Source: an uncultured Bacillota bacterium (lineage in GTDB: Bacteria > Bacillota_I > Bacilli_A > RFN20 > CAG-288). From it: a stretch of 64,000 bases of DNA. Below the pieces are notes generated by a model that made no database searches, was not told the DNA's origin, and worked only from the letters and a program-made list of their open reading frames with translations. Shown piece by piece: positions 31,360 through 64,000 of the stretch. Position 1 is the first letter of the stretch. The number at the start of each line of letters is the position of its first letter. A program made the translations under genes and the position numbers. Location: positions 62,001-126,000 of the forward strand of contig CASDVP010000005.1 of assembly GCA_949284445.1 (NCBI GenBank), in the 5' to 3' direction.

Positions 31360-32238
31360 ATGCTTGTTAATGCTACAAGAATGCTTAAAGCTGCTCGTGA
31401 TGGACATTATGCTGTCGGTCAATTCAACATCAATAATCTTGAATGGACAAAAGCTATCTTAACAACAGCTCAAGAATTAAATTCACCAGTCATACTCGGT
31501 GTTTCTGAAGGCGCTGCTAAATATATGACTGGATTTAAGACAGTCGCCAGCATGGTCAAAGCCATGGATGAAAGTCTCGGAATCACTGTTCCTGTCGTTT
31601 TACATCTCGATCATGGCACTTATGAAGGTGCTAAAGCCTGCATCGCTGCTGGTTTCACCTCTATCATGTTCGATGGATCTCATCTCGATTTTGATGAGAA
31701 CATCAAAAAGACTAGTGAATTAGTCAATCTCGCTCATGATAAAGGACTTTCTATTGAAGCAGAGGTTGGTGCTATCGGTGGTACCGAAGATGGTGTCACT
31801 GCTGATGGTGAGATCGCTGATCCTGAAGAATGCCGTAAAATTGCAAATTTAGGTGTTGATTTCTTAGCTGCTGGCATCGGAAATATTCATGGTATCTATC
31901 CAAAAAATTGGAAAGGATTACATTTTGATGCTTTAGAAAAGATTCATCAAGCGACTGATCACATTCCTCTTGTTTTACACGGCGGAACTGGTATTCCAGA
32001 TGATCAGATCAGAAAAGCCATCATCAATGGTGTTTCTAAAGTCAATGTCAACACTGACTGTCAATTAGTATTTGCAGCTGCTACTGTTGAATATTGCTTA
32101 GCTGGAAAAGCAGCACCAGATCCAGATAAAAAAGGATTTGATCCTCGTAAATTATTAAAACCTGGATATGAAGCTATCAAGGCAAAAGTCAAAGAAAGAA
32201 TGGAAGTCTTCGGCTCTATTAATAAAGCTTCTTACTAA
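31360..32238 (+). CDS. fba: Fructose-bisphosphate aldolase, class II
   Basis: A zinc-dependent glycolytic aldolase of 292 residues. The ATG at 31360 is chosen because AAGGAGGG lies just upstream and LVNATRMLKAA is the normal N-terminus; an in-frame extension to 31249 is unsupported. Zinc and catalytic motifs: VVLHLDHGTYEGAKACI (around 77-93), EAEVGAIGGTEDG (around 131-143), LAAGIGNIHGIYP (around 172-184), VLHGGTGIP (around 207-215) and the phosphate-binding NVNTD (around 230). It is monocistronic and ends in a strong hairpin. Confidence 0.97.
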   Translation: MLVNATRMLKAARDGHYAVGQFNINNLEWTKAILTTAQELNSPVILGVSEGAAKYMTGFKTVASMVKAMDESLGITVPVVLHLDHGTYEGAKACIAAGFTSIMFDGSHLDFDENIKKTSELVNLAHDKGLSIEAEVGAIGGTEDGVTADGEIADPEECRKIANLGVDFLAAGIGNIHGIYPKNWKGLHFDALEKIHQATDHIPLVLHGGTGIPDDQIRKAIINGVSKVNVNTDCQLVFAAATVEYCLAGKAAPDPDKKGFDPRKLLKPGYEAIKAKVKERMEVFGSINKASY

Positions 32239-32245
32239 TAAAAAG

Positions 32246-32271
32246 TGTCACCCAGTCGGGTGACATTTTTT
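32246..32271. terminator. Bidirectional terminator between fba and ybaK
   Basis: An eight-pair stem TGTCACCC/GGGTGACA with loop AGTC, A run before and T run after, so it serves both convergent genes. The final Ts reach the ybaK stop codon. Confidence 0.93.
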
Positions 32272-32734
32272 AAACTAGATCAACAAATTCACAATCGCAG
32301 ACTTTTTGTAAATCTTTTGGATTTATTTCGATTTGTAATCCGATTTTACCGCCTGAAATAAAGATAGTCTGATAGTTTAAAGCACTGATATCTATAAAGG
32401 TGGAAAAGCTTTTTTTCATTCCGATAGGTGAACAACCGCCATGGATATAACCAGTCAGTGGTAGAAGCTCTTTTTGATGTATCATTTCAATATTTTTTTC
32501 ATCTGCGCATTGAGCGGCTTTCTTTAAGTTGAGTTCTTTAGAAGCAGGAATCACAAATACATAGTGGTTTTTACTCTTTCCAACTGTCACTAAAGTTTTG
32601 AATACTTGATCGATGTTTTCTTGTAGAGAACTTGCGACTTCTAGTGCGCTCACCGCACCAGATTTTTGATAATCATGTACTTTATATGCGATATCAGTCT
32701 TATCTAAAATACGCATCGCGTTAGTTTTTGTCAT
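32270..32734 (-). CDS. ybaK: YbaK/EbsC-type aminoacyl-tRNA deacylase
   Basis: A 154-residue trans-editing protein of the YbaK family, best known for hydrolysing Cys-tRNA(Pro). The central VFVIPASKELNLKKAAQ (around residues 58-74, with the conserved Lys), LTGYIHGGCSPIGMKK (around 92-107) and FISGGKIGLQIEINPKDL (around 124-141) match the family. It starts by a four-base overlap with the fmt stop. It would complement the ProS at 3.6-5.0 kb, which lacks a cis-editing domain; this pairing is inferred. Confidence 0.92.
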   Translation of the reverse strand: MTKTNAMRILDKTDIAYKVHDYQKSGAVSALEVASSLQENIDQVFKTLVTVGKSKNHYVFVIPASKELNLKKAAQCADEKNIEMIHQKELLPLTGYIHGGCSPIGMKKSFSTFIDISALNYQTIFISGGKIGLQIEINPKDLQKVCDCEFVDLV

Positions 32735-33660
32735 TTTAATATTATTCCCTCTATCTTATTTCCATTATTGAAATTATTAGAATCCATCATTTTTTTACCT
32801 GGTTTTTGAAGCTCGAGAAGATTGACTTGACCTTTAGACAATTGCAAGATGATCTTCTTCTTCTTTGCTAAGACTATTTTTCCTACTTCTGATTCAACTT
32901 TATCTGAATAATATTCAGCTTGATATATTTTTAATATTTCATCATTCAGAAATAAATATCCGCCTGGTTTATAAGATAATGATCTGACTTGATTAATAAA
33001 ATCTATCGGTGAGGCATTTAAATTCAAATGCTCTTCCTCTTTCTTTATCGATGGTGAGAAAGTGACTTTTTTCTCATTCTGTTTAGTAGGTTTTAAGTTT
33101 CCTTTAAAATATTCAGGGAGCTTATTCACCGCTAAGAAAAGTGCCGCATCAGCAACTTTTTGTGATAAAGAAGTGTAGTTATCAGTCATAAAAATCGGTA
33201 TATATTCAATCGCATAGACATCACCAGCATCCATCTCTTTGACCATTTCCATCAATGATACGCCAGTGATATCATCACCGTTTTTTAAAGCGTATTGAAT
33301 AGGAGCAGCTCCGCGATATTTAGGTAGGATCGAAGCATGTAAATTCAAAGGTTTATAACGGCTTAGTGTGAGAATGTCTTCTTTGATGATTTGACCATAT
33401 GCAAAAGTCAAAAGCAGATCCGGTTTCAGATCTTCGATAAATTGATAATCTGTATTTAATCGATGAGGTTTATGAACTGGAATATGATATTTATCTGCGA
33501 CAAGAGCAACAGGTGATGGCTCTATTTTATTACCGCGTCCTCGAATTTTGTCTTCTTTAGTCACGACACCGACGATATTAAAATTATTTTTGATCAAACC
33601 TTCTAAGAGTTTGGCAGATATTTCAGGAGTTCCTAAAAAAATGATTCTTTCGTTTGCCAT
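32731..33660 (-). CDS. fmt: Methionyl-tRNA formyltransferase
   Basis: A 309-residue enzyme formylating initiator Met-tRNA. The N-terminal Rossmann domain has IIFLGTPEISAKLLEGL and the catalytic LNLHASILPKYRGAAPIQYAL (around residues 107-127) with Asn, His and the later Asp in MDAGDV. The C-terminal OB-like domain begins around 205. AGAGGTG precedes the ATG. No def or priA is adjacent, unlike in many Bacillota; instead it is coupled to ybaK. Confidence 0.96.
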   Translation of the reverse strand: MANERIIFLGTPEISAKLLEGLIKNNFNIVGVVTKEDKIRGRGNKIEPSPVALVADKYHIPVHKPHRLNTDYQFIEDLKPDLLLTFAYGQIIKEDILTLSRYKPLNLHASILPKYRGAAPIQYALKNGDDITGVSLMEMVKEMDAGDVYAIEYIPIFMTDNYTSLSQKVADAALFLAVNKLPEYFKGNLKPTKQNEKKVTFSPSIKKEEEHLNLNASPIDFINQVRSLSYKPGGYLFLNDEILKIYQAEYYSDKVESEVGKIVLAKKKKIILQLSKGQVNLLELQKPGKKMMDSNNFNNGNKIEGIILK

Positions 33661-33697
33661 TTTTCACCTCTTTGTGTTTTCGACGTTAAAAATTATA

Positions 33698-33706
33698 TGC
33701 TAAAAT
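33698..33706 (+). promoter_or_regulatory. Extended -10 immediately before the CmpB-type gene
   Basis: TGC-TAAAAT (-10 at 33701-33706). Initiation seven bases on would fall on or next to the A of the ATG at 33714, suggesting a leaderless message. No SD is present. Confidence 0.5.
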
Positions 33707-33713
33707 AATACAA

Positions 33714-34670
33714 ATGTGTAATACATGCTTGTTTCTTGATTCAAATATCAATATAACCGCTGGTAAAGTCTTGATAACTTATCTTTTGATGTTTATTTTT
33801 GGTTGTGTTTTAGGTTACGCCTTAGAAGTTTTATTCAGACGGATATTCACTGCGCATCGCTTTGTGAATCCGGGATTTATGAAAGGACCTTGGCTACCTC
33901 TATATGGTTTTGGCCTTGTTTTGATGAGCACCATCAATTATCTGTTGATCACTTATTTACCTAGTGATTTTGTTTTTTATAATCCGTTAGGAAATCTTTA
34001 TGAAAATCAGTATATGTCAGGACCGACAGTTTATGATCTAGTCCCGATCATCATCGTCGCTATCAGCTTAGTGGCTTTAGAGTTCATCGCTGGTTTGATT
34101 TTTGTAAAAGGTTTTAAAGTCAGATTATGGGATTATTCCAACATGAAAGGAAATATTCTTGGAGTTATCTGTCCTTTGTTTTCATTTTTCTGGTTCGTCA
34201 TTTCGATCGTTTACTATTATGCTATAAATCCTTTTATCTATCGGCTTTATGCAATAGTATTCAATTTCATGTTTGAAGGTGATATCGGAAATGCTACAAG
34301 TCATTATCTGGTAGTTTTTGCTCTCGGTATCGTATATGGTATTTTCCTTATAGATTTGATCATCTCTTTAAATGTCTTTTCTAAAATCACCAGCTTCGCT
34401 AAAAAAGTTCAAACTGTTGTCGGATATGAAAAACTAAGAGAGTCTTTAAAGAATCACTTGAAACTTTCAAAAGAAAAATTCAATGCTTTGATCCCTGAAG
34501 AAATAAAAGAATCTTATGAGACTAAAAAGAAAATAAAAAAGGAAAGAAACAGTCGTTTTATTTATAAAATAAGAGCACTGATTCTAAAGGATCCGAACAA
34601 AGATACGAGTAAAAATTATGATGAAAATGGTCGCCCTATCAGAGCCGATGAAGATAAAGAAAAAAGCTAG
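33714..34670 (+). CDS. CmpB-type putative ABC transporter permease (PF06541-like)
   Basis: A 318-residue membrane protein with about six hydrophobic segments and a highly charged C-terminal tail (from about residue 235). The family pattern is FGCVLGYALEVLFRRI...RFVNPGFMKGPWLPLYGFG (around 27-68), a conserved loop seen in Bacillota proteins annotated as putative ABC permeases without a known partner ATPase. Function is unknown. The start has no SD and an extended -10 lies directly upstream. The stop codon is inside the 5' arm of the terminator hairpin. Confidence 0.8.
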   Translation: MCNTCLFLDSNINITAGKVLITYLLMFIFGCVLGYALEVLFRRIFTAHRFVNPGFMKGPWLPLYGFGLVLMSTINYLLITYLPSDFVFYNPLGNLYENQYMSGPTVYDLVPIIIVAISLVALEFIAGLIFVKGFKVRLWDYSNMKGNILGVICPLFSFFWFVISIVYYYAINPFIYRLYAIVFNFMFEGDIGNATSHYLVVFALGIVYGIFLIDLIISLNVFSKITSFAKKVQTVVGYEKLRESLKNHLKLSKEKFNALIPEEIKESYETKKKIKKERNSRFIYKIRALILKDPNKDTSKNYDENGRPIRADEDKEKS

Positions 34671-52121: not shown

Positions 52122-52733
52122 AAAATATTCCTTTCTTTATTTTTAATATAATCGTGTATAATTTGCAGTTATATAAAGAGAAGAACCAATTGTTATTTTT
52201 AAGATATCACTAGTTGAGTTTCCTTGCAAATATGTGTATTAATGGTTTCATATGTATTTTATAATCCGAAAAAATTTATTTGAAGAAATTATGATAGGTC
52301 GATAATGTCATTAATTTAAGATGACATAAATGCAAATGAGTTATAAAAGGGCTGCAACATAGCTTCGAGCAATTGCCGATATTTTGTTACAGCCCTATTA
52401 AGTTCAATAATATCGGGACAATGAGACATTTTAAATCCAAATGCTAGTTATATAATCTCAATTTATGTGATTTTATGCAATAAATAAACTCAATTTTAAT
52501 TACTAAATAAATATATTTTAGTGACATTTGTTATATCCAAACACCAAAACTGCACCATAGTTTTTGCCAAACAATTAAGTCTAAAATTCATAATTGAATG
52601 GTATACAATTCAAATATAAAAAAGTCGATAAATTTGGGAATATTTCTACTTAAAATCCTAACTTTATTGACATAATTACATAAAGAAATAAACTCTAAAT
52701 TAGGGCTACATATTCAAATAACGGAGGTGTTAA
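52122..52733. other. Non-coding boundary stretch with a terminator-like hairpin
   Basis: About 610 A+T-rich bases. AGGGCTGCAACA (52348-52359) and TGTTACAGCCCT (52385-52396) form a twelve-base stem with one mismatch, with TTTTAT following on the minus strand, so it resembles a leftward terminator although no leftward gene precedes it. TTGACA at 52667-52672 may be the -35 for the DUF4417 gene but no good -10 is seen. The hairpin may be a remnant of an insertion element. Confidence 0.5.
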
Positions 52734-53408
52734 TTGAAAAATCAAAACTATGTTCTTAAAAAGGATTTCTTTAAATCTTTTTATTTTAAAGGAGATAAAT
52801 TAGCTGAACCATATGGTTTTCCTAAATTAGAAGCTGTAAAACCTCAAATAGTCGAGGGAATCATGCCATTCAATATCTTGATGAGCAATTCGAGGCGAAA
52901 TGTTTGGATGCATTTTTTTATTGATGATTATCAATTTGAAAGAGTGTATCAGACGCCTACAAAATATCTTACACTCTTTCAAAACGTTAAAGGAATCATA
53001 ACACCTGATTTTTCTCTATATGCAGATTTACCCAAAGCAATTCAAATCTATAATTGCTATAGAAATAGAGCAATAGCGCGTTATTTACAAAAACTTGGAT
53101 TAAATATCATTCCAAGTGTAAGTTGGAGCGATGTAACTAGCTATGGTTGGTGCTTTAGTGGAATTGAAAAGCACTCTGCAGTAGCTATTTCTACTAATGG
53201 ATGTTTTCAATCAAAAGAAACATTAGAAGCTTTTATAAAAGGATATCTAGCAATGTGTGACGTAATAAAGCCAAAACAAATCATTCTTGTTGGCAAAGTT
53301 CCTAAAGAGTTACAAAACAATTTACTAATAAATGCTTTTCCTAATCATAGTATGGAAATAAACAGAAAAAAAGGGGGAATTAAATGGGAGGAAGAGGAGC
53401 TACACTAG
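52734..53408 (+). CDS. DUF4417-type protein
   Basis: 224 residues starting at a TTG with GGAGGTG six bases upstream. The pattern matches DUF4417: VEGIMPFNILMSN, HFFIDDYQFERVYQTPTKYLTLFQNVKGIITPDFSLYADLP (around residues 60-100), NCYRNRAIARYLQKLGLNIIPSVSW (around 106-130) and ISTNGCF. The family has no established activity and is frequent in phages and other mobile elements. It overlaps the next gene by 25 bases. Low G+C and isolation from host operons support a transferred cassette. Confidence 0.8.
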   Translation: MKNQNYVLKKDFFKSFYFKGDKLAEPYGFPKLEAVKPQIVEGIMPFNILMSNSRRNVWMHFFIDDYQFERVYQTPTKYLTLFQNVKGIITPDFSLYADLPKAIQIYNCYRNRAIARYLQKLGLNIIPSVSWSDVTSYGWCFSGIEKHSAVAISTNGCFQSKETLEAFIKGYLAMCDVIKPKQIILVGKVPKELQNNLLINAFPNHSMEINRKKGGIKWEEEELH

Positions 53409-54190
53409 CAGGTCAGCACACTAAAAGCAAAGATAATATAAAGATTAAAATAGGTGGAAGATTAAAAAAAGATCAGATAGCTGTCAATTGGAACGATCCA
53501 GTGACGTTCTATGAGAATGATATGTATGACAAGCTAAAAGAAAAAGGTTTTTCTACAAGAGCTTCAACAGACATTGTTGATGAAACAACAATTGCAAGGC
53601 AACAAAGACAAATTGATAGGCTAGCTACAGAATATAATAGTGTATATAGAAATGTAACCAAAGATAATGAAATTATGTTTGGCACTGAACATGTAAAATC
53701 AGTCAAGGGTAAGCCTTTGCCAAATATTTGGGGCTATTGTGCTGTTGCTGTAAAAGAAGATGGTAAGCCTATTCAAAAAGTAGTATTAAATCTAAAACAA
53801 TTAGAAAGAACTGCTAATGAACAAGTTGTGTCTGTTAGATCAGGTATAAAGGAAAAGCATTTTGTTTCTATTGATTTAGATAAATCTAGAGAATATGTTA
53901 TCACTCATGAAATGGGGCATGCTTTAGAAAATAGCTTGGTAGCACAGATAACAGCTACAAATAAACAAGATTTTATGGACAATTATGATAAGACATTAGC
54001 TAAAATTAAACATGATGTAGTTGATTTAGCAAATAAGAAGTATAATGGATGTGACATTTATCTTTCAAAATACTCTAGCCAAAATGATGCTGAGTGGTTT
54101 GCTGAGACGTTTACTAATTTAAAGTTATCTAAAAATCCTGCACCGATTGCTAAAGCTTTAGGAGAATACATAGAGAGGTATAAAAAATGA
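53384..54190 (+). CDS. Phage-type zincin metallopeptidase
   Basis: 268 residues. The N-terminus MGGRGATLAGQ is characteristic of phage and mobile-element proteins. The zinc motif THEMGHALE (His175, Glu176, His179) and a downstream NDAEWFAETF (around 234-243) supplying a probable third Glu ligand mark a gluzincin-like peptidase related to the C-terminal domains of phage head-morphogenesis-associated proteins. No signal peptide. GGGGGA inside the preceding gene serves as ribosome site. The target is unknown; it could process a phage protein or act on the host. Confidence 0.75.
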   Translation: MGGRGATLAGQHTKSKDNIKIKIGGRLKKDQIAVNWNDPVTFYENDMYDKLKEKGFSTRASTDIVDETTIARQQRQIDRLATEYNSVYRNVTKDNEIMFGTEHVKSVKGKPLPNIWGYCAVAVKEDGKPIQKVVLNLKQLERTANEQVVSVRSGIKEKHFVSIDLDKSREYVITHEMGHALENSLVAQITATNKQDFMDNYDKTLAKIKHDVVDLANKKYNGCDIYLSKYSSQNDAEWFAETFTNLKLSKNPAPIAKALGEYIERYKK

Positions 54191-54540
54191 TAATGTTCCC
54201 ATGGTGTGATGTTGATACTCAAAATCAGTTTGAAACTGTTCCTGAAACTAAAGACAATCCTCTTGGAGTTTTGCCTAACAAATTAGCTACATCAGAAAAT
54301 TTAGTTATTTATTATTCTTTCTTAGTTAAACTTAAAAATAGAATTCTTGATGCTAAATATGGTGAGCCTGAAGAAGTAATTCCAGGCTTAGCTTATGATG
54401 AAGAAAAGTTATCTGAGAAGATGATAGAAGAGTTTAAAGCTTCCAAACTATATCAAGAAAAATCTGAGAAAGAAAGGCAAGATATCATCGATGCAATCAA
54501 TGATAATCCATATCCTGATACTCATGGTGTGTTCTATTAA
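54187..54540 (+). CDS. Hypothetical protein of the phage-type cassette
   Basis: 117 residues, acidic, without membrane segments or known motifs. It starts in a four-base overlap with the peptidase gene and is followed by a strong terminator, so it is the third cistron of the DUF4417-zincin unit. ENLVIYYSFLVKLKNRILDAKYGEPEEVIPG looks like an alpha-helical start. Function not recognised; translational coupling suggests it works with the peptidase, perhaps as an inhibitor or partner. Confidence 0.6.
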   Translation: MIMFPWCDVDTQNQFETVPETKDNPLGVLPNKLATSENLVIYYSFLVKLKNRILDAKYGEPEEVIPGLAYDEEKLSEKMIEEFKASKLYQEKSEKERQDIIDAINDNPYPDTHGVFY

Positions 54541-54630: not shown

Positions 54631-54906
54631 TTATCGTGTTGTCTTTTTAGGATTGTATGATTGCTTAGATTTAACAGTATTCTTATTAGTTCCTATCTTC
54701 CAAGGCCAAATTGGTGGATATTTCTTCCCTAATGCTTTCATCAATGTAGCATACCACCACCAAAACAAAAGGAAATATGGTATTTCTAAGAGAATAGCAC
54801 AAACCCATCTTAAGACCTGTTTAAGAGCAGGAAACCAAACAGATAAAACAGCTAAAACTACTCCAATAACTAATAGGACAATAACTACAATTGCAAAACC
54901 ATTCAT
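54631..54906 (-). CDS. 91-residue membrane protein related to the tail of the large exported protein
   Basis: Two hydrophobic stretches (around residues 3-24 and 30-52), then YFLLFWWWYATLMKALGKKYPPIWPW and a basic Lys-rich tail. The arrangement and the WWW-A-K-A-G-P-IW spacing match the last 75 residues of the protein encoded at 55695-57527. GGAGGATAAAA precedes the ATG. In a filamentous phage, a short membrane protein with a basic C-terminus could be a coat component, but the long distance from the N-terminus to a cleavage site does not fit a standard major coat protein. Function unknown. Confidence 0.7.
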   Translation of the reverse strand: MNGFAIVVIVLLVIGVVLAVLSVWFPALKQVLRWVCAILLEIPYFLLFWWWYATLMKALGKKYPPIWPWKIGTNKNTVKSKQSYNPKKTTR

Positions 54907-55069
54907 TTTTATCCTCCATCATAATAGTGTTTTTAACTTCTACAACGTAATTTAATAGTTTCCTTTATTTCACCTCCATATTGATTTAAATATTGTCTTG
55001 ATCTAAAATACTATTGCGTTGAATGTTCTATTCCAGTTAGCTGTATTCTAGCAATTAGATTTCTTTTTA

Positions 55070-55157
55070 TTGACTTTTTATCTTTTAAGGATTATCCTAA
55101 TATTACTAGGTGACCTACTCCGTTAAGCTGTGTGGCAGCAGGTTAGGTCACCTTTTT
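55070..55157 (+). other. Hairpin with plus-strand T tail, possible small RNA
   Basis: A ten-pair stem AGGTGACCTA/TAGGTCACCT (55108-55117 with 55144-55153) encloses a second hairpin GCTG-TGTGG-CAGC and ends in TTTTT on the plus strand, just beyond the stop of the leftward operon. TTGACT (55070-55075) and TATCCT (55093-55098) with 17-base spacing make a weak rightward promoter. It could be a short plus-strand RNA, a blocker of antisense transcription or a single-strand phage signal. Confidence 0.4.
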
Positions 55158-55698
55158 ATTTTTTATGCTTGCTTTGGGTTTTAATTTTTCTTCGCCGCTT
55201 AGATCTTGCTTTCTGAAATTTTTTGTTAGGTGCTTCTGTATAATTATTTGGTTCAGTTTCCCATTTTTCAATTGCTTTGATTAACAATTTCTTATCTGAC
55301 TTACTTAGACTATAGTTTTGATATTTTTTTCTTTTTTTGTAAGTGGTGGCTTTTTTATCAACGATTTCATGAATGACATATGCTTTTTTTAATCTAGTCC
55401 ATGGATTTATATCGTATTTTAATTCTATAGGATTCTTTTTCTTTCTCATTACTGGTTCATGGCTTATAGATACTGATTTTAAATGTTTATTCCCATATTC
55501 GTCATAATATTTGTCATAAACTATATGTGGATGAACCCCTTGATGTGCAGAAAGATTTCCTCTAACAATAAAGTCATATTTCTTTGTAGGCTCAGGTTTA
55601 TCATTTTGCTTAATTCTTTCTGAACGTTTATAAAGATGAATAATGCCAACTATAGATACAATCACGAAGATTGATAATATTACTAATGCAATTATCAT
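55156..55698 (-). CDS. TM-anchored basic protein, unknown function
   Basis: 180 residues: an N-terminal membrane helix (around 2-24), a soluble part with HPHIVYDKYYDEYGNKHLK (around 57-75) and a very basic C-terminus (QKARSKRRRKIKTQSKHKK). It starts in a four-base overlap with the stop of the preceding 610-residue gene. One membrane helix with a strongly positive tail is a form seen in DNA-contacting virion or morphogenesis proteins, but no family is recognised. Confidence 0.65.
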   Translation of the reverse strand: MIIALVILSIFVIVSIVGIIHLYKRSERIKQNDKPEPTKKYDFIVRGNLSAHQGVHPHIVYDKYYDEYGNKHLKSVSISHEPVMRKKKNPIELKYDINPWTRLKKAYVIHEIVDKKATTYKKRKKYQNYSLSKSDKKLLIKAIEKWETEPNNYTEAPNKKFQKARSKRRRKIKTQSKHKK

Positions 55699-57527
55699 TT
55701 TTTCTTGCTAAACAACCAGATAGATGGTGCTTCTTCACCTTGTGCTTTCTTGATGATAGCTAACCACCACCATACTAAGAGAACATAAACGATATCAATC
55801 ACTAATTCGACGATGAATAACAAACCTTTAAATATCCAGGTTATAACCTTTAAAACAGGTTCAAAGATCATAGCTAAGATAACTAAGACTACTAATGCTA
55901 CAATCAAGAATACCCACGAATATTGTTTAAAGAATTGAACTATATCATTAGTTATGAAATCCCATAAGCTAGGCGCAGGCATGCCTATTAAATAAGCATT
56001 CCTTGTTGTTAATGGATCATGTATGGTTCTGATATCAAACACTTTGTTATTCTGAACTACTTTCATGCCTAATGTCACTGTTCCATAGAGCTCATGACAT
56101 TCAGTAGTTTTAATAAAGACAGTTGTACTACCAGTTCCCCCATCTGGAAATGCTCTAACAACTTGTGGTTCTTCATCGATAGATCTGACTAATGAATCTG
56201 CTTCTATTGCATAGGCGAACTTATAATTTATATGATCATCAGAAGTGACGAATTGTTTAAATGCTTCCCAACTCTCTTTTTCATCTTTAGATGCATCTTC
56301 ATCAGGTGAATAGCTATCTATATTTTGAATATCTACAATCATCGGAACTTTATATTTCTTAGTAATAGTATAATGTTGCCATAAATCATCATTATCGTAT
56401 TGCTCTTCAAAAGAGACAACTTCATTTTTAGTGACACCATTTAATGAATAACTAGTGCCATCTTCAGCATAACTAGTATATGTATATTCTTGTCCTAATA
56501 TATCATGAAGCGTATAACTGATTTTTGATATATTGCTATATGTATCTCGATAAACTGATGGGTCTGGTGATTTAGAAATCTCACCCATCACGCTTCCCAA
56601 AGTATAGGTGAAAGCCGTATAGTCTAATACATTCGTATGCCAATAAACTTCTTTGATTTCATCTGGTTTAAAAGTTTCATCTTTGAAATTAAAGAAAACA
56701 TAGAAAATTTCTTTAGCTTCATTAAGCTTTTCATCTTGTTTTGTATGAAGAAAATAAAAAATCGTTGAAGCACCACTAGCTTCATAAGCTTCTGAATGTG
56801 TTGGTGCTAACCATAGATCTTGAACTGCTTCTAATTCATATGTGTCTTCTGAATAGTAATTAAAAAGTGCATTCTCTTCTTTACAATTATTATCATACAA
56901 GAGCTCATATTCGTTATCTGTGCCGAAATCATAAGTTTTGTCACTAACACTATCTGGTGTTAACACTCTCAATGTTCTTGGTTTGAATCTATATGTTTCT
57001 TCAGAGCTTTCTATTGCTACATAATTCGGGATTGTAAACTTATAATAATAACCTTTAGATCCACTATAAAAATTAATTAAATCAAGCTGTGAAGTTTTTA
57101 TTACATCATTTTCATATCCAGTGCCATCATCTTTTATCTCTGAAGCGTTGTAATAATCCAAAGAATAAGAATATGTGCACGATTTATAGTCATATATTTT
57201 GTTTTCATTCAACTGACAATCATCAATTCTATCTGCTGAATATAGATATAAATACAACTGATTCACACCATTTGGAAGAGTTCCTAAATACTTATATGAC
57301 GTCTCTTCACCTAACTTTCCTTGTGGAGTTATTGAATCGATATCAAAATTTCTATATTCTTCATCAGATACATGTCCATCTTTATTAGCATCACCATAAA
57401 GAACTGCTAAGTCATAATAAACATTTGTTCTAGCTATATCATAAGGTGAATCATATGATGCATATTTAGTTATTGGAGTGCCGATAGCTAAGCCTAATGT
57501 TATTCCTAATAATATTCTATTCATCAT
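55695..57527 (-). CDS. Large exported protein with EF-hand-type loop and membrane tail
   Basis: 610 residues. An N-terminal signal-like segment (around 3-20) is followed by DANKDGHVSDEE (46-57), a full calcium-binding EF-hand/dockerin-type loop with acidic residues at positions 1, 5 and 12. A long Tyr/Asp/Ser-rich extracellular region continues to about residue 510, then two strong membrane helices (around 515-540 and 550-580) and the tail VWWWLAIIKKAQGEEAPSIWLFSKK. It overlaps both neighbours by four bases. It may be a structural or adsorption protein of the element; no known full-length family recognised. Confidence 0.7.
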   Translation of the reverse strand: MMNRILLGITLGLAIGTPITKYASYDSPYDIARTNVYYDLAVLYGDANKDGHVSDEEYRNFDIDSITPQGKLGEETSYKYLGTLPNGVNQLYLYLYSADRIDDCQLNENKIYDYKSCTYSYSLDYYNASEIKDDGTGYENDVIKTSQLDLINFYSGSKGYYYKFTIPNYVAIESSEETYRFKPRTLRVLTPDSVSDKTYDFGTDNEYELLYDNNCKEENALFNYYSEDTYELEAVQDLWLAPTHSEAYEASGASTIFYFLHTKQDEKLNEAKEIFYVFFNFKDETFKPDEIKEVYWHTNVLDYTAFTYTLGSVMGEISKSPDPSVYRDTYSNISKISYTLHDILGQEYTYTSYAEDGTSYSLNGVTKNEVVSFEEQYDNDDLWQHYTITKKYKVPMIVDIQNIDSYSPDEDASKDEKESWEAFKQFVTSDDHINYKFAYAIEADSLVRSIDEEPQVVRAFPDGGTGSTTVFIKTTECHELYGTVTLGMKVVQNNKVFDIRTIHDPLTTRNAYLIGMPAPSLWDFITNDIVQFFKQYSWVFLIVALVVLVILAMIFEPVLKVITWIFKGLLFIVELVIDIVYVLLVWWWLAIIKKAQGEEAPSIWLFSKKK

Positions 57528-58090
57528 AATTCTATGCTCCCAAATAACTTCTGATGGTAAACATTAGCCACATTCATCGTTAATTGTTCACCTGTTTCTG
57601 ATATCGTGGATACAGATATAGCTACTCCGCTTCTGTTCCAAGATACTGGTAATGAAACACAAGGCTCATCTGTATTTAATAAACCCATAGACGTAAAGAA
57701 ACTGATGCTTCCACCATCATCAAAGAAATCTGATATAGAATCATAGATAGAATTTTTAATGACCTCTGGTGCTACATCATAAAAGCCTGCTTTCATACCG
57801 AAACTATTCTGATCAGTTGATAGACTTGTATCTAGAGTCCCGGAACTTAAATTAACAAAAAAATCATAACCATGTTCTTTATGTTGTTCACCAGGTTGTA
57901 AGATATCAACATATAGAAAATGATCATATCTATATCCTGTTGCTACATCTTGAGAATATGGATATCCGCCTATATACAGCTTGCTTTTATCGATCTCTTC
58001 TTGGAGGATACTATCGCAAGAACTTAAACTGAACAGGCTTAATGAGCTCATCAAAGCTATTATCATCTGCTTTAATTTCATTTTCTTCAC
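57524..58090 (-). CDS. Lipoprotein of unknown function
   Basis: 188 residues with a signal peptide ending in the lipobox SLSSC (Cys25). The mature part is beta-rich (GYRYDHFLYVDILQPGE, GYDFFVNLSSGTL) with SISDFFDDGGSISFFTSMGLL near residue 118. AAGGAG-like GAAAGGAGTG precedes the ATG. Its stop overlaps the start of the 610-residue gene, so the two are coupled. No family recognised; an envelope-anchored partner of the exported proteins is inferred. Confidence 0.7.
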   Translation of the reverse strand: MKKMKLKQMIIALMSSLSLFSLSSCDSILQEEIDKSKLYIGGYPYSQDVATGYRYDHFLYVDILQPGEQHKEHGYDFFVNLSSGTLDTSLSTDQNSFGMKAGFYDVAPEVIKNSIYDSISDFFDDGGSISFFTSMGLLNTDEPCVSLPVSWNRSGVAISVSTISETGEQLTMNVANVYHQKLFGSIEL

Positions 58091-58144
58091 TCCTTTCTTT
58101 TAGATAAAGAGAGGGGAGTTTTATTCTCCCCTCCAAAAGGATTC

Positions 58145-59563
58145 TTATTTATTAATACTTGAAGAATCTTCTATCTCTGGTGTACTACTAGAATTAGGAA
58201 CTTCTTCTTCGGGTTCTTCTGCAAATCTTAAGTCCCATTCATAATCAGTGATCCAGCAATCAAACTTGAACTTAGTGAACACTCCTCTAAACCAGTTTTT
58301 AAAACATTGCCAGAATTTAGTCCAACCAGAAAGTTCATCATCTGGATTTACTGCATTTCTTCCTTCAGTTACCCTAATTGTTAAATTATCATTTTTTGTT
58401 CCAATACTTTGATCATCGTTAAGATAATTCACTTGATAATTTACCTTGTAACTTCCAACAGATGTTGGATTCTCTTGATAATCGGTATCATCCAATAAAA
58501 CTGATGTGACATTTAATTCTGGATATAATCCATAAGTGATAATTGATTGAATTTGTGAAGAAGTTAAAGGAGCATCTGAAGTTGCGCTAACTAATGTGGA
58601 AGAAAGAACAAACACAGGTGGCAAATCCGCTGACACAGTGACATGTGCTACAAATTCACCTTTGTTTCCACCCGTATCAGTACAAACAACTTTCACATCA
58701 CATGCACCAACTTTTGTTGGGATAAATTCACCTTCAATTTCTAATTGTAAACTCTCACTTGAATCGACATTATCTGTCACGGCAAAGAGATCTAAAAAGT
58801 CTTCTTGTGACAGATTTAACACCTTTGATAATCCGATCATGATATTACCATCTCCACCATCTTTCATAGTGATGATCGGTGCTTGAGTATCTCTCACTGA
58901 AACTTGAAACTCTTGTGTTGCTGCATTTCCAGAACTATCTGCCACTGTCACATTTAATCTATGATTGCCTACATCGAAAGCTGACCACACTTTATCTTCT
59001 ATTAATGGTTCGCCATCTAATGTATATGTTGGAGAGCCGATTGTACCACCGTGATCTGTACCATTATCTGTGATTGTGAAATATTCAGAAATTTTATCAA
59101 ATTCTAATGTATCACCGGTCGAAAAGACAAAGGACTTTGAAGGAGCTAAAGCAATTATTGGGTTTACGATATCTATAACATGAATCTCTAAATAAGCAGT
59201 TGAACTTTGCAAGTATTTATCAGTAGCAGTGATAGTGATTGTATAAACACCTAACTTTGTTTCATCGTATTTAGCTTTTTCTTCTTCAGTGCATTTTACT
59301 TCGACATCTACACCTAATAAATCTTCAGCAGAAACATTAGCTAAAATCTGATCGATAGTCCAAGGATCATCCACATTGACATAGATTTCTGCTGTTTCAC
59401 CATCTTCTAATTCACCATCTTCACCATCATTTGCACGCAATACATTTGCTCTTTTTGAATCAACTGTAGGCTTGAAGCTCATCTGATCATGACTTGTTAA
59501 GCCATTAATAGAACATAGTGTTGACATGAGACCTAATAACATCATCGTTTTAATTTGTTTCAT
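58145..59563 (-). CDS. Exported Ig-like repeat protein B with Trp/Cys-rich tail
   Basis: 472 residues from the ATG at 59563 (AAGGAGGAAAT upstream; a nine-codon extension is unsupported). Signal peptide (around 1-22), then three or four cadherin/HYR-like beta modules, seen in repeated D-GNAATQEFQVSVRDTQAPII and D-GGNKGEFVAHVTVS patterns. The last region contains W-KFWQCFKNWFRGVFTKFKFDCWITDYEW (around 415-445), then an acidic Ser-rich end. It is a paralogue of the following-upstream 667-residue protein. Such Ig-like chains usually bind surfaces or glycans. Confidence 0.75.
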   Translation of the reverse strand: MKQIKTMMLLGLMSTLCSINGLTSHDQMSFKPTVDSKRANVLRANDGEDGELEDGETAEIYVNVDDPWTIDQILANVSAEDLLGVDVEVKCTEEEKAKYDETKLGVYTITITATDKYLQSSTAYLEIHVIDIVNPIIALAPSKSFVFSTGDTLEFDKISEYFTITDNGTDHGGTIGSPTYTLDGEPLIEDKVWSAFDVGNHRLNVTVADSSGNAATQEFQVSVRDTQAPIITMKDGGDGNIMIGLSKVLNLSQEDFLDLFAVTDNVDSSESLQLEIEGEFIPTKVGACDVKVVCTDTGGNKGEFVAHVTVSADLPPVFVLSSTLVSATSDAPLTSSQIQSIITYGLYPELNVTSVLLDDTDYQENPTSVGSYKVNYQVNYLNDDQSIGTKNDNLTIRVTEGRNAVNPDDELSGWTKFWQCFKNWFRGVFTKFKFDCWITDYEWDLRFAEEPEEEVPNSSSTPEIEDSSSINK

Positions 59564-59598
59564 CGATTTATTTCCTCCTTTATAAAACAAACTTAATA

Positions 59599-61602
59599 CT
59601 ACTCACCAAATCTTACTTTCCATTCAGAGTCTGTTATCCAACAATCAAATTTGAATTTGGTGAAAACACCTCTGAACCAATTGCAAAAGCATTGCCAAAA
59701 TTCAACCCACCAATTACAAAATTTTTCCCATCCATTCATCTCTTCATGAGCATTTTCAGCATTATCAGAAACTACCATTGTAAAAGTATCATTTTCACTT
59801 TTTATAATTCCATTTGCTTCATATGTGAATGAATAATTAATAGGATAGTTTCCCTTTTTTGTAGCATTCTTTTGATATTCAGTATCATCAACGACAACTG
59901 TTCTCAATTCTTTATCAGGTTGCAGAGCTTTCATAATAACTGTTTTTACTTCCCCACTTGATAATGGCTGTTTAGCTGATGCCGAAACTAAAGTGCTAGA
60001 CAAAACAAAAACAGGCGGTAAATCACTATCAACAATCACATGAGAGATTAAGCTTCCTTTATTATTAGCTGAATCAGTACAAGTGATAGTGATGTCATAT
60101 TCACCTACTGTTGTCGGTATAAATGTACCTTCGATCTGTAATTTTAAATTATCTGAAGAATCATGATTATCAGTCGCAGAAAACAACATCAAAAAATCAT
60201 CTTCGGTCAAATTGAGAAGTCTTGATAATCCAACAATTAAATCATTTGTGCCACCATCTCTCCTTTTGATCACAGGAGCCGTTATATCATGAACTATAAG
60301 ACTATAGCTTTCAGTTGTTGAATTTCCTGCGCTATCAGATGCTATAACTTTTAATACATGATCACCGCATTCTTCACTGCTAAATGTTTTATCATCTACA
60401 AGAGCTTCATCATCGATGTAATAAGCAACATTTTCTAAATTATTGCTATCATCAGTAACTAAAATATACTCATCAATCGAAGAAACTGAAATTGTTTCTC
60501 CTTCATTAAAAGTTAAATCTTTAAGAAGTTGAATCGTAGGTGAAATCGTATCTTTGACAATGATTTCTAGCCAAAAATTAACATCATATGTATCTTCATA
60601 AGAGGTCTTAAATAGCAAATCATATGTTCCAGGTGTAGAAGCATCATAAATACCCTCATAATCAGGTAATAATTGTGGAGCGGTAAAGATAGCTGCTGAA
60701 TATTTACATGATATATATTGCTTTCCTGTAACCTTATCTAAAATTGTATTGATATCTGGATATTCATTAACACCAGCTTCAAAAACAATAGGCGGTTGAT
60801 TCCATCCTAAATGATTTCCTGTTTGCTTGTTATAGAAAATATTATTATAGAATCCCATATAAACAGGAACTTCACCACTTAAAATATCTTCTCCTTTAAC
60901 AGAATTTCCATACGAATCTTGAATATAGATTTCGCCGAGCTGCTCCAATACTCGATTTCCAGAACCATCAACGTCATCATAAAAATCCTGGATATTGCCG
61001 AGAATGGTAGTAGGGCAAAGATTGTTTATTCTATTTTCTAAAACATTATTGCCATAATTGTATCCCTGAAAAGGAAACTCAAATGGAATATCTTTATCCC
61101 AATCTGGCTGATTATATGATGTTCTAGAAAACCCATAATAATCATCTCCTGAATATACAGGAGTGTCCCAAGGATGAAACTTATTATCTCCTATGGAAAT
61201 AAAAAAATAAGTATATTCGTCAACATAATTATCGAGAATAGATTTGATTGCAAATAATTCATCAGGAGTGTCTTCTTCCTCAGGATGATTAAAACCGACC
61301 TTATAAGGTGTTAGTGTTTCATCATATCCAGGATATGAAGACAATCTTCTAGAAGGTGCAGAAAAGATTTCTCTAAAATTATTAAGCTCATCACCAGATA
61401 ATACAGTCAACTCAAAATCATAGGAAGTATCTGGGGCAGGAATATTATTCTCATCAGTGATGGATTCGAAACTTCTATTACTTATTTTTTTTAGTGAAGT
61501 AAAAGTAGTAGCTATAGTAGAAGTTCTAGGACTCGCTTGTGCTATACTAGTCATCGATAGTGCTGATATGGCTAATACTATCTTTTTACTAATTTTATGC
61601 AT
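59599..61602 (-). CDS. Exported Ig-like repeat protein A with Trp/Cys-rich tail
   Basis: 667 residues: signal peptide (around 1-24, cleavage after SIAQAS likely), a unique N-terminal region of about 330 residues (Tyr/Pro/Asp-rich), then Ig-like modules closely similar to protein B (SPTIQLLKDLTFNEGETISV..., DSAGNSTTESYSLIVHDITAPVI, DLPPVFVLSSTLVSA) and the tail W-EFWQCFCNWFRGVFTKFKFDCWITDSEW. AAGGAGGTG precedes the ATG at a slightly long distance. The unique head suggests receptor or adhesin function; the shared tail suggests that both attach to the same structure. Confidence 0.75.
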   Translation of the reverse strand: MHKISKKIVLAISALSMTSIAQASPRTSTIATTFTSLKKISNRSFESITDENNIPAPDTSYDFELTVLSGDELNNFREIFSAPSRRLSSYPGYDETLTPYKVGFNHPEEEDTPDELFAIKSILDNYVDEYTYFFISIGDNKFHPWDTPVYSGDDYYGFSRTSYNQPDWDKDIPFEFPFQGYNYGNNVLENRINNLCPTTILGNIQDFYDDVDGSGNRVLEQLGEIYIQDSYGNSVKGEDILSGEVPVYMGFYNNIFYNKQTGNHLGWNQPPIVFEAGVNEYPDINTILDKVTGKQYISCKYSAAIFTAPQLLPDYEGIYDASTPGTYDLLFKTSYEDTYDVNFWLEIIVKDTISPTIQLLKDLTFNEGETISVSSIDEYILVTDDSNNLENVAYYIDDEALVDDKTFSSEECGDHVLKVIASDSAGNSTTESYSLIVHDITAPVIKRRDGGTNDLIVGLSRLLNLTEDDFLMLFSATDNHDSSDNLKLQIEGTFIPTTVGEYDITITCTDSANNKGSLISHVIVDSDLPPVFVLSSTLVSASAKQPLSSGEVKTVIMKALQPDKELRTVVVDDTEYQKNATKKGNYPINYSFTYEANGIIKSENDTFTMVVSDNAENAHEEMNGWEKFCNWWVEFWQCFCNWFRGVFTKFKFDCWITDSEWKVRFGE

Positions 61603-61693
61603 TTATCATCATCACCTCCTTATTGATAAAGCATTTTAAAAGATTAAATATAAGATTGAAGCAATATAAAAGCTGTATGTTTTATCTGCTTTG

Positions 61694-61737
61694 ATTATAC
61701 TTTTCTTGCTTTTTATATAAGCTTTAGCTTATATAAA
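61694..61737 (-). promoter_or_regulatory. Hairpin and -10 between the ATPase and protein A genes
   Basis: A twelve-pair perfect stem TTTATATAAGCT/AGCTTATATAAA (61712-61723 with 61726-61737) with a two-base gap lies 10 bases after the ATPase stop but lacks a T tail. TATAAT on the minus strand (61694-61699) is a probable -10 for the structural genes; no good -35. Confidence 0.5.
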
Positions 61738-61746
61738 GCATAAATA

Positions 61747-63075
61747 CTATTTTTTAGATTTCTTAGTTATAGTTTCTTTTTCTCCTTGTTGGTTTCGTTT
61801 CTTTAAGACTCTACTTGCTAAGTCATCTTCTGTAATTGCTTTAGGTTCATCTGTGAGCTTCCATCTAGACTTTTGGATGAGCATCTTTTGTACAGAATGA
61901 AATTGAAAAGTGTTAGTGCTTCCTCGACAATACTTGATAGGTATCACTGCTCTTAAAGCATCCACTGTATCTGAAGTGATTCTAGTTTTCCCAAAGTCGT
62001 TAGTATCATGATATATGCGACCAAGGAAGAGAACATATGAGTGAGATGCTACACATTTTTTTAAGTTGTAGATTTTACCAAGGAAGTCACGACTTTTAGA
62101 ATTTACCAAGTATGCTTCATAGCCTTTCTTTTTCTTTTTGAACCAAAGATTAATTCTAGCTGGAATAGTGATTAAATTAAGATAGAACATTGCTGTGAAA
62201 TGTGGATTGATTGCAATAGATTTTCTCATAGCTACAATTTCTGTCGCTAAATCTCTTTCACGATTGATATCTGTCCCCCAGTATTGATTAGTTGTTGTGT
62301 AATAGATAGTTTCTTGACCTAGTTGACCGATAAGACGCATACAATCAGCAGCTCCAGAATCTTGTTTTGAATATTGCCAGAATGTTGTACAATCCTTACC
62401 CGATAATTGTTTTTCATCTTCACAAATAATCGAATAGGGAAGCAAGTGATAATCTTGAAGTTTATCAGAATCTTTTTTATCTGGATTAAGTGCACAATCT
62501 TTTATATTCAACATTTCAGGTGAGTAATCCATAGCATCGTTATTGGTTATCCATGAGTGAAAAGCTTTGCCGTAGTAATAAACATAATTATTTCTCATCA
62601 AAGCCCATCTAGCATCAATATAATCAGCAAGTAATGAAAGAAATGGGACAGGTTTTGCAGAAAGATGATTGTCATAACTCAAATTAGCATAAGCAGCTAA
62701 AAGCGAGCCATCGGCAAGCAGTTTTTTAGCTTCTGTGTATGAATCAATGTATCCTTGCTCAAAATCCTCTACAAGCCTCTTTTCAATACAATCGAAGGGA
62801 ATTTGTGGAAAAGCTAGACAAATGAATTTTATTTTTAATAGTGCCCGTTTGATTAAATCTTTTGTTCTGATATTAGCATATCCTGCTTGAAATGTGGTTT
62901 TACCGGACCGAACTTTACCAGTGATATAAACTAAGTAACGCAAATGATTGCAAAGAAACTTTTCAGTTCTTCTGCTAGAGCCTCGAAGTAATAAATAATA
63001 GACTAATTCAACAATCCAAGGCACAATTAATAGAGCTAAAAAAATACAAAGAATTACAATAGAAGCTATTGACAT
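61747..63075 (-). CDS. Membrane-anchored P-loop ATPase, pI/Zot-like
   Basis: 442 residues. A membrane helix (around 4-30) is followed by Walker A GKVRSGKT (53-60) in RYLVYITGKVRSGKTTFQAG, a long helical insert, Walker B YSIICEDE (214-221) and RLIGQLGQETIYYTTTNQYWGTDINRE (247-273), which resembles the sensor/arginine region after Walker B. A second hydrophobic stretch lies near 293-312 and a Lys-rich tail ends the protein. The ITGKxxSGK-T start and the DE box are features of filamentous-phage assembly ATPases (pI, Zot). VirD4/FtsK-like coupling proteins are the alternative. It is the key protein for identifying the element. Confidence 0.6.
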   Translation of the reverse strand: MSIASIVILCIFLALLIVPWIVELVYYLLLRGSSRRTEKFLCNHLRYLVYITGKVRSGKTTFQAGYANIRTKDLIKRALLKIKFICLAFPQIPFDCIEKRLVEDFEQGYIDSYTEAKKLLADGSLLAAYANLSYDNHLSAKPVPFLSLLADYIDARWALMRNNYVYYYGKAFHSWITNNDAMDYSPEMLNIKDCALNPDKKDSDKLQDYHLLPYSIICEDEKQLSGKDCTTFWQYSKQDSGAADCMRLIGQLGQETIYYTTTNQYWGTDINRERDLATEIVAMRKSIAINPHFTAMFYLNLITIPARINLWFKKKKKGYEAYLVNSKSRDFLGKIYNLKKCVASHSYVLFLGRIYHDTNDFGKTRITSDTVDALRAVIPIKYCRGSTNTFQFHSVQKMLIQKSRWKLTDEPKAITEDDLASRVLKKRNQQGEKETITKKSKK

Positions 63076-63127: not shown

Positions 63128-63439
63128 TAAAGTTGATGATTAAGGCTTAAAAAACCTTTTATTTATGGGCTTTTTTTATTTTTAGATATATACCATTCAT
63201 TTTTTAAAAAATGATTAGAATTTAAAAAATCCGTATTTGTTTCCTTAATAGCAAAAAAAATTTCAAGACGAATATCACTATTAAATGAAATAGTCAATTA
63301 TTTTTTGTTTGAGATTGGATTACTCGCGCGCATACGCGCAATATTAATAATCTTTTTATAAAAGATATATAAAAAAGATATTTAAAAAGATATTTATACT
63401 AGGAAAATAAAGAGGGATTCTAAGGGGGAAAAAGAGGGG
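63128..63439. other. A+T-rich non-coding stretch beside the iterons
   Basis: No gene is visible. At 63334-63347 a short GC-rich palindromic hairpin occurs (GCGCG-CATA-CGCGC). Behind it GATAT recurs after A runs at 63364, 63377 and 63389, 12-13 bases apart, in an almost purely A/T segment (63350-63400), the sort of sequence that unwinds at replication origins. Confidence 0.5.
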
Positions 63440-63519
63440 TGCAATATTTTGCATCACCTAGTGCAATATTTTGCACCAAGTAGTGCAATATTTTGCATTT
63501 GCAAGTGCAATTTTTTGCA
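63440..63519. repeat. Four 22-bp-spaced palindromic iterons
   Basis: TGCAATATTTTGCA at 63440, 63462 and 63484 and TGCAATTTTTTGCA at 63506 start exactly 22 bases apart (two helical turns). Each is itself a near-palindrome (TGCAAnA/TnTTGCA), and each is preceded by G. Spacers of eight bases differ. This is the layout of iterons bound by a plasmid or phage Rep protein at an origin; an operator array for the neighbouring regulator is the alternative. Confidence 0.75.
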
Positions 63520-63543
63520 CATGGAGATTATAACTAAATTATT

Positions 63544-63758: not shown

Positions 63759-64000
63759 CTATTTCTCCTTTGTTTGGTAAGTCGAATTTACTTGAACGTT
63801 ATTATTATCACCCTTTACCTTGATATCAACAGGATTTATACCAGATAAGACTTGATTTAAGAGCTTATTAGCTTGTACCAAATCTTCATATTGTTTTCTA
63901 GAAATTATTACTAAATCTTCATTCTTTGCCCCTAATAATTGATTGATTGAAATCCCATAAAAATTAGCTAAATCAATGAGTGTCCCACAATCTGGTTCAC
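63759..64000 (-). CDS. XRE-family regulator, C-terminal part (cut by the right edge)
   Basis: 80 codons of a protein starting beyond the right edge. EPDCGTLIDLANFYGISINQLLG is the last helix region of a Cro/CI-type helix-turn-helix domain, followed by a helical linker with RKQYEDLVQANKLLNQVLSG and a polar tail ending DNNNVQVNSTYQTKEK. It ends six bases before the lipoprotein remnant and shares its ribosome site. Position next to the iteron region makes it a candidate repressor of the mobile element; the DNA-recognition helix is outside the window. Confidence 0.8.
   Translation of the reverse strand, partial: EPDCGTLIDLANFYGISINQLLGAKNEDLVIISRKQYEDLVQANKLLNQVLSGINPVDIKVKGDNNNVQVNSTYQTKEK

Follow-up and report, generated by a model that had tools for sequence, protein, structure and literature searches.

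An integrated element at a tRNA-Pro gene

The window analysed here, a 64,000-nucleotide stretch of DNA from an uncultured Bacillota bacterium (G000:C5:62001-126000, in a 1.47 Mb host assembly that is 91% complete), holds part of an integrated element that we read as a likely filamentous-phage-type provirus. The integrated unit measures 16,351 bp and runs, in window numbering, from 52400 to about 68777, with its right end beyond the window edge. On the minus strand it carries a gene cluster that encodes, in order, an ATPase, two immunoglobulin-like (Ig-like) proteins, a lipoprotein-like protein and proteins of 610, 180 and 91 amino acids (aa) (Table 1). The original prediction, made from the letters of the window, had listed these genes correctly as an inovirus-like module; the limits that it gave, 54631-63075, cover only part of the element.

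The element is bounded by two exact copies of a 27-bp attachment (att) repeat, the sole one of more than 13 bp that the searched flanks have in common, and encodes, to the right of the window, a tyrosine integrase of 383 aa (PF00589, E 5e-15). Looking to the right of base 64000, as had been proposed, yields the integrase gene and an att site at a tRNA gene, and no recognisable rolling-circle replication protein (Rep). A second genome of the same genus (G014) has the empty site: the homologous flanks, 17.4 kb apart in G000, are separated there by 691 bp. Identity is 98.3% on the right, starting at C5:130716, and 80% on the left, as far as C5:113315, and nothing interrupts the tRNA-Pro sequence. 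Since the ATPase is present in only three of the 15 genomes of the genus, the window's own counted, and the site is empty in G014, the element is not core host DNA, which the original prediction had named as an outcome that would speak against it. To the left of the tRNA-Pro gene in G014, a 68-bp stretch (L143:4984-5049) matches window positions 63386-63451 (81%, E 2e-7), a segment that reaches into the palindrome array described below; the stretch in G014 may be left over from an earlier integration.

A remote link to plectrovirus ATPases

In line with the predicted membrane anchor, the ATPase has an N-terminal hydrophobic segment, as well as a P-loop (GKVRSGKT) at residue 53 and a DE box (ICEDEK). 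It has no convincing match to a Pfam or PHROG model, and the best result of a PDB profile search, FtsY (E 0.018), is weak and restricted to the P-loop region. We built one profile from six ATPases of the family (A1) and another of 20 rows (A2), and compared six profiles by hhalign: Plectroviridae ORF2 ATPase (3 rows; ORF, open reading frame), Gram-negative Zot, FtsK, ABC, 'TcpA' (3 rows) and 'VirD4' (2 rows), the last two consisting of the longest ORFs at loci that match PF01580 and PF12696, respectively, with TcpA being our own label.

Plectroviridae ORF2 ranks first against the 20-row profile, with a global probability of 76 over 294 columns, and when match columns only are used its global score is 39.9 (probability 90, 288 columns). 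The five other profiles reach a global score of at most 8.7, as do 60 column shuffles, done for the Plectroviridae profile alone. Local scores are 39.7 for Plectroviridae, 23-31 for the other profiles and up to 20 for the shuffles. Among the six profiles, a near-full-length alignment is obtained only with the Plectroviridae pI-type ATPase, and only using the 20-row profile. The probability is at most 6 for TcpA and VirD4, and at most 11 for FtsK, TcpA, VirD4 and ABC together. Of the checks suggested at the outset, against Zot and against VirD4/FtsK, the second thus came out in favour, with no alignment to conjugation-type profiles, and a best match to conjugation coupling proteins, which would have spoken against the prediction, did not appear; the first did not, as PF05707 stayed unmatched.

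A hidden Markov model (HMM) of the family, searched against six-frame ORFs of nine filamentous phages, finds SVTS2 ORF2 best (E 0.0011), followed by the Zot of bajarodino virus 52 (E 0.017) and SVGII3 ORF2 (E 0.032). Hydropathy gives one or two segments in 18 of 20 ATPases, the others being L075, cut at a contig end, and L076, with none. Taken together, the profile comparisons suggest that the window ATPase family is remotely homologous to the plectrovirus pI-type ATPase.

Relatives and their replication modules

Profile A1 matches 30 of the 279 genomes sampled from the order (E 1e-3) and 21 of 395 from the class, and A2 matches 28 of 392 genomes of the phylum, all in the same class, counts that take in weak partial-length matches to longer ATPases (650-800 aa). 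The main group comprises 22 loci, the window's own counted, and the hosts of five of them are uncultured Firmicutes, Erysipelotrichaceae and Bacilli. Long-ATPase loci were kept out of the main count, both those with a Rep of the Rep_trans type and those without, in which no replication gene was recognised; among 22 extra loci, the ATPase HMM has no match in G029, G488 and G187. The ATPase, an Ig-like protein, an integrase and an XRE regulator are each found in most uncut loci, and att repeats of at least 25 bp lie at a tRNA in six of 15 loci examined, with none found in the other nine. G016 has an ATPase 68% identical to that of the window and the same right-arm genes. In G024 the 10,542-bp unit is present twice, as identical tandem copies with three att sites of 41 bp, an arrangement that is possibly an assembly artefact.

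Rolling-circle Reps of filamentous-phage type are encoded at 15 of the 22 main-group loci, 11 of them Rep_trans and four G2P-type HUH Reps (PF23343). Two loci (G024 and G032) have a phage replisome organiser and two (G000 and G016) a winged-helix-like protein of 160-166 aa, of which the G000 copy has weak PHROG matches to replication proteins; the remaining three, all cut by contig ends, have no replication gene. PF02486 and PF23343 have no match anywhere in the (incomplete) assemblies of G000, G016, G014 and G024. G032 has a Rep_trans at another locus (G032:C3, about 31793-34042), beside a long-ATPase match; this may be a second element, and one that could act as helper to the element without a Rep in that genome. 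By tblastn, the Rep of G013 matches eight phage records, of which seven are Dulem or bajarodino viruses. The three records examined are all circular genomes of Inoviridae that encode Zot, and their Reps are matched by the HMM of the family Rep at about 1e-38. The G2P-type HMM matches the Reps of SVGII3 (1.7e-7) and SVTS2 (6.5e-5).

In the main group, the rolling-circle Reps occur together with A8, a protein family of 165-214 aa whose C-termini are acidic. A8 is encoded at all 12 main-group rolling-circle loci that are uncut before its region (three more are cut), and at none of the three no-Rep loci that span the element (G000, G024 and G032), where the best relaxed-threshold matches have E 12-14 (Fisher one-sided p 0.002). 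Eleven of the 12 loci supplied the sequences for the A8 HMM, with hold-outs recovered in G272b (9e-21), G289 (1e-14) and G317b (8e-33); the last two carry both Rep and A8 and were left out of the main count. On the ATPase tree this association comes down to just two independent pairs, both concordant, a number that cannot reach significance. The tree needs at least two changes between Rep and no-Rep, and a single clade of the four no-Rep loci is rejected (p-AU 2e-5), for a group that was named after the loci had been seen and on a tree with several weak branches. Among the long-ATPase loci with Rep_trans (G153, G058, G050, G051, G053 and G228), two of six have A8 (G228, E 3e-6; G051, E 2e-3) and four, one of them a 4-kb contig, do not, so the link is a loose one in that group.

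A8 matches nothing of note in Pfam or, by sequence, in the PDB, and was not found in the nine known filamentous phages (best E 0.42). A two-sequence structure model, with a predicted local distance difference test (pLDDT) score of 55, has an OB-like strand order; its top row in VIA-align is the single-stranded DNA (ssDNA)-binding protein of phage Pf3 (Z 4.2, root mean square deviation 3.2, 67 aligned), Foldseek returns nothing significant, and a BFVD entry of 50 aa is similar to part of the model. The acidic tail, the low-confidence OB-like model and the weak Pf3 match are suggestive of a putative ssDNA-binding protein (SSB).

Three further observations concern the relatives. One related element, in G570, encodes a PcfJ-like protein (L087:10521-11858; PF14284, E 9e-18). 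Four loci (L183, L187, L197 and L182) have ATPases of 646-796 aa; three of them have Ig-like proteins and an integrase with no recognisable Rep or A8, L182 being without an Ig-like match, and they probably form a second lineage of the same kind. At L081 (G272:C4), two related elements stand in opposite orientation, their ATPase genes about 8 kb apart and separated by two similar helix-turn-helix genes that look transposase-like by eye.

Secreted proteins, cargo and the repeat array

The 91-aa protein, a candidate small virion or coat protein, shares 42% identity over 36 aa with the C-terminal end of the 610-aa protein (E 1.8e-8). We regard the 610-aa protein as a candidate minor coat or attachment protein; over its residues 539-606 it shares 44% identity with the C-terminal end of a G013 protein of 753 aa. 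Both Ig-like proteins have signal-like N-termini by eye, and the 3' ends of their genes share a 103-nucleotide repeat (78%), in keeping with the two adhesin-like proteins with a common tail that had been predicted; Ig-like protein 1 is a candidate receptor-binding protein. The prediction of several secreted or membrane proteins is borne out for the 610-, 180- and 91-aa proteins, and the hydropathy scan found no membrane segment in either Ig-like protein or in the lipoprotein-like protein. Pfam and PHROG scans (ten proteins each) returned no capsid, terminase or portal family, as expected from the prediction, and no lysis gene was recognised among the element proteins scanned.

Just inside attL, three genes form a rightward cassette (52734-54540, plus strand) that encodes the DUF4417 protein, the HEMGH metallopeptidase and the 117-aa protein. 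Judging by its strong PHROG matches, the DUF4417 gene may come from another phage.

Table 1 Features of the element in window numbering, with contig positions marked C5
Feature	Position	Strand	Basis and remarks
attL	52400..52426		27-bp exact repeat of tRNA-Pro 3' end
DUF4417 protein, cargo-like	52734..53408	+	PF14386, E 1.5e-56; phrog_8680, E 4.2e-61; also strong phrog_940 match
Putative zinc metallopeptidase (HEMGH), cargo-like	53384..54190	+	Motif in translation; ATLF and Peptidase_Mx matches weak, below cut-off
117-aa protein, no assigned function	54187..54540	+	Likely one operon with the preceding two; 4-bp ORF overlap with neighbour
91-aa protein, two hydrophobic segments	54631..54906	-	ORF and hydropathy scan
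180-aa basic protein, one N-terminal hydrophobic segment	55156..55698	-	ORF and hydropathy
610-aa secreted-type protein, two C-terminal hydrophobic segments	55695..57527	-	ORF and hydropathy
Lipoprotein-like protein (LSSC, by eye)	57524..58090	-	Translation
Ig-like protein 2	58145..59590	-	Ig-type matches weak, below cut-off; homologous to Ig-like proteins of relatives
Ig-like protein 1	59599..61602	-	Ig-type matches weak, below cut-off; Ig-like family in 17 of 21 element loci
pI-like morphogenesis ATPase, 442 aa	61747..63075	-	A1 and A2 alignments; hhalign to Plectroviridae ATPase; family HMM
Four-palindrome array	63439..63520		22-bp spacing; between repressor and ATPase genes
XRE repressor, 120 aa	63759..64000, continuing to window-equivalent 64121	-	HTH_19, E 1.2e-10
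Right arm, after XRE gene	past window	rightward	Proteins of 90, 205, 101, 113 (weak HNH) and 166 aa
Right arm, further	past window		383-aa integrase, DUF3850 protein, small ORFs, then tRNA-Pro
attR	C5:130751-130777 (68751-68777)		Covers tRNA-Pro 3' end, past window
tRNA-Pro gene	C5:130763-130838		Carries attR at 3' end

The array next to the XRE gene, which had been taken for an iteron origin with its regulator, is real, as is the gene, and its four GTGCAAWATTTTGCAC-like copies are palindromic. Counting both strands, the pattern matches nine times in the window, eight of them in the array; shuffled sequence gives a mean of 2.28, and none of 100 shuffles reaches nine. In G016 the corresponding place holds three palindromes, again spaced at 22 bp but unrelated in sequence, and the XRE protein there is just 24% identical over 53 aa to that of the window; the array was not found in four other loci checked. 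With these findings, operators of the element's own XRE repressor fit better than Rep iterons, although a better fit is not proof.

A probable temperate filamentous-phage-type provirus

We consider it likely that the window element, as known here from its genes, is a temperate, tRNA-integrating provirus of filamentous-phage type in Bacilli, related to plectroviruses and to the inoviruses of animal faeces; phages of this type exit their host without killing it. The inovirus-like reading of the original prediction is supported, with corrections, by the integrase, att pair and empty site, by the gene set common to the relatives, by the plectrovirus link of the ATPase, by the filamentous-type Reps of relatives and by the tandem provirus of G024. 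On this account, the XRE repressor would hold the ATPase operon off through the palindromes spaced at 22 bp, and on induction the integrase would excise a circle at tRNA-Pro. The right arm would replicate this circle, with the winged-helix-like protein as initiator in place of a rolling-circle Rep, the membrane ATPase would drive virion assembly and extrusion through the membrane, and the Ig-like and C-terminally anchored proteins would form the particle tip and bind the host.

Several results weigh against this reading. Pfam Zot (PF05707) matches none of 20 aligned ATPases at E 10, and none of its matches listed in 23 genomes falls at ATPase-family loci. The local hhalign probability to Plectroviridae alone is 48-53 with three template sequences, and a five-row sub-profile gives 27 locally and 0.05 globally; as the sub-profile misses the plectrovirus link, the link depends on the full family profile. 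Three gut-inovirus Zots reach a probability of only 22 locally and 0.03 globally against the ATPase profile, and the same three link well to the Zot (98-99) and Plectroviridae (93-96) profiles. The structure model of the ATPase is poor (pLDDT 52), and a fold search with it in BFVD gave nothing significant (best E 0.17). The window element has no recognisable Rep_trans or G2P Rep and no identified coat protein; ORFs of 38-115 aa with a hydrophobic segment were called at 17 of the 21 loci, a count that takes in spurious ORFs, and none is recognisable as coat. At 16.4 kb, it exceeds the size of the filamentous phages compared. Pattern scans of IMG/VR, a method that reaches close relatives only, found no relative, and tblastn of three ATPases against the phage set gave no relevant match, nor did a plasmid search of limited reach; relatives may be hidden among unnamed 'Inoviridae sp.' records.

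Some of these results would also suit a filamentous provirus that has decayed or been domesticated and is retained as an island for secretion or surface display of the Ig-like proteins: there is no rolling-circle Rep, no putative SSB and no clear coat gene, and extra cargo genes sit at the left end. We hold this to be improbable, as the structural ORFs and the integrase are all open, both att copies are exact, the ATPase is 68% identical in G016 beside the same right-arm genes, and the duplicated G024 element shows the same pattern of loss. Still less credible is a mobilisable element of the integrative and mobilisable type, in which the integrase, a MobT-like Rep_trans relaxase and a coupling ATPase would use a host conjugation machine: Rep_trans proteins do include Tn916-type conjugative relaxases, size and tRNA sites fit and one relative has a PcfJ-like protein, but the ATPase is unlike the TcpA and VirD4 profiles, the host assembly has no TraG-D_C match and a single FtsK match, Ig-like and anchored secreted proteins are common to relatives, and some relatives have a G2P-type Rep, with neither Rep in the window element.

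A bolder proposal is that, in filamentous-phage-type elements such as these, rolling-circle replication and the putative SSB were exchanged at least twice for initiation by winged-helix or replisome-organiser proteins, so that virions would be built on double-stranded DNA or on ssDNA made otherwise; we regard this as doubtful. That a rolling-circle Rep and the putative SSB seem to be missing together raises the question of whether pI-type extrusion can work without rolling-circle ssDNA. Few filamentous phages of Gram-positive hosts have been characterised, and the ATPase family, missed by Pfam Zot, offers several integrated examples with defined ends.

Comparison with known systems

Elements of this kind, integrated inoviruses, are already known; for this lineage of ATPases, accompanied by Ig-like proteins and seemingly exchanged replication modules, the searches made, which were of limited reach, gave no relevant match. 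In the literature searches, no title or abstract opening among the papers listed describes the ATPase family, and no paper was found for 'inovirus' with 'theta replication'.

We applied to the ATPase family the pI criteria given in PMC6813254, which concern Zot, transmembrane domains, similarity to other ATPases and inovirus genes at the loci. Zot is not the closest domain by Pfam; one or two transmembrane domains are present in most ATPases (18 of 20), there is no significant similarity to another type of ATPase, and at least half of the loci have inovirus genes (Rep in 15 of 22), the window element not being among them. The genome of the window element has no plectrovirus-type Rep, the G2P type being found at four of 22 loci, and the element has no coupling protein of VirD4 or TcpA type. 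Because the Zot Pfam and Rep tests came out negative, we place the window element in neither Inoviridae nor Plectroviridae.

The Plectroviridae (SVTS2, R8A2B and SVGII3) share with the family an ORF2 ATPase in which hydrophobic segments precede the P-loop, and some relatives have a G2P-type Rep that matches those of SVGII3 and SVTS2; their neighbouring ORF1, with N- and C-terminal segments, is a further likeness, to the 610-aa protein of the window with its C-terminal pair. Unlike them, the window ATPase family has a longer stretch from Walker A to Walker B, its elements with known ends measure 10.5-16.4 kb as against 6.8-8.3 kb (4.5 kb in MV-L1), and it has Ig-like proteins and a tRNA-targeted integrase, with the window element lacking a Rep. 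With the Dulem and bajarodino Inoviridae of animal faeces the similarity of the ATPase is weak (probability 22; E 0.017), and the family lacks Pfam Zot and the window element a Rep. Relatives nevertheless share their Rep_trans-type Rep (about 1e-38), Dulem 51 is annotated with Zot, a replication protein and a recombinase, and the Zot of bajarodino virus 52 begins with a hydrophobic segment, as does the window ATPase.

Integrated inoviruses are widespread, monoderm hosts included (PMC6813254). Those of Enterocloster, compared here by their description (PMC10061712), are integrated in Gram-positive gut hosts, measure 6.5-8.5 kb with one of 16 kb, and have been shown to be secreted; several differ from the window element in having Zot annotations, and, like it, they are integrated with direct-repeat ends.

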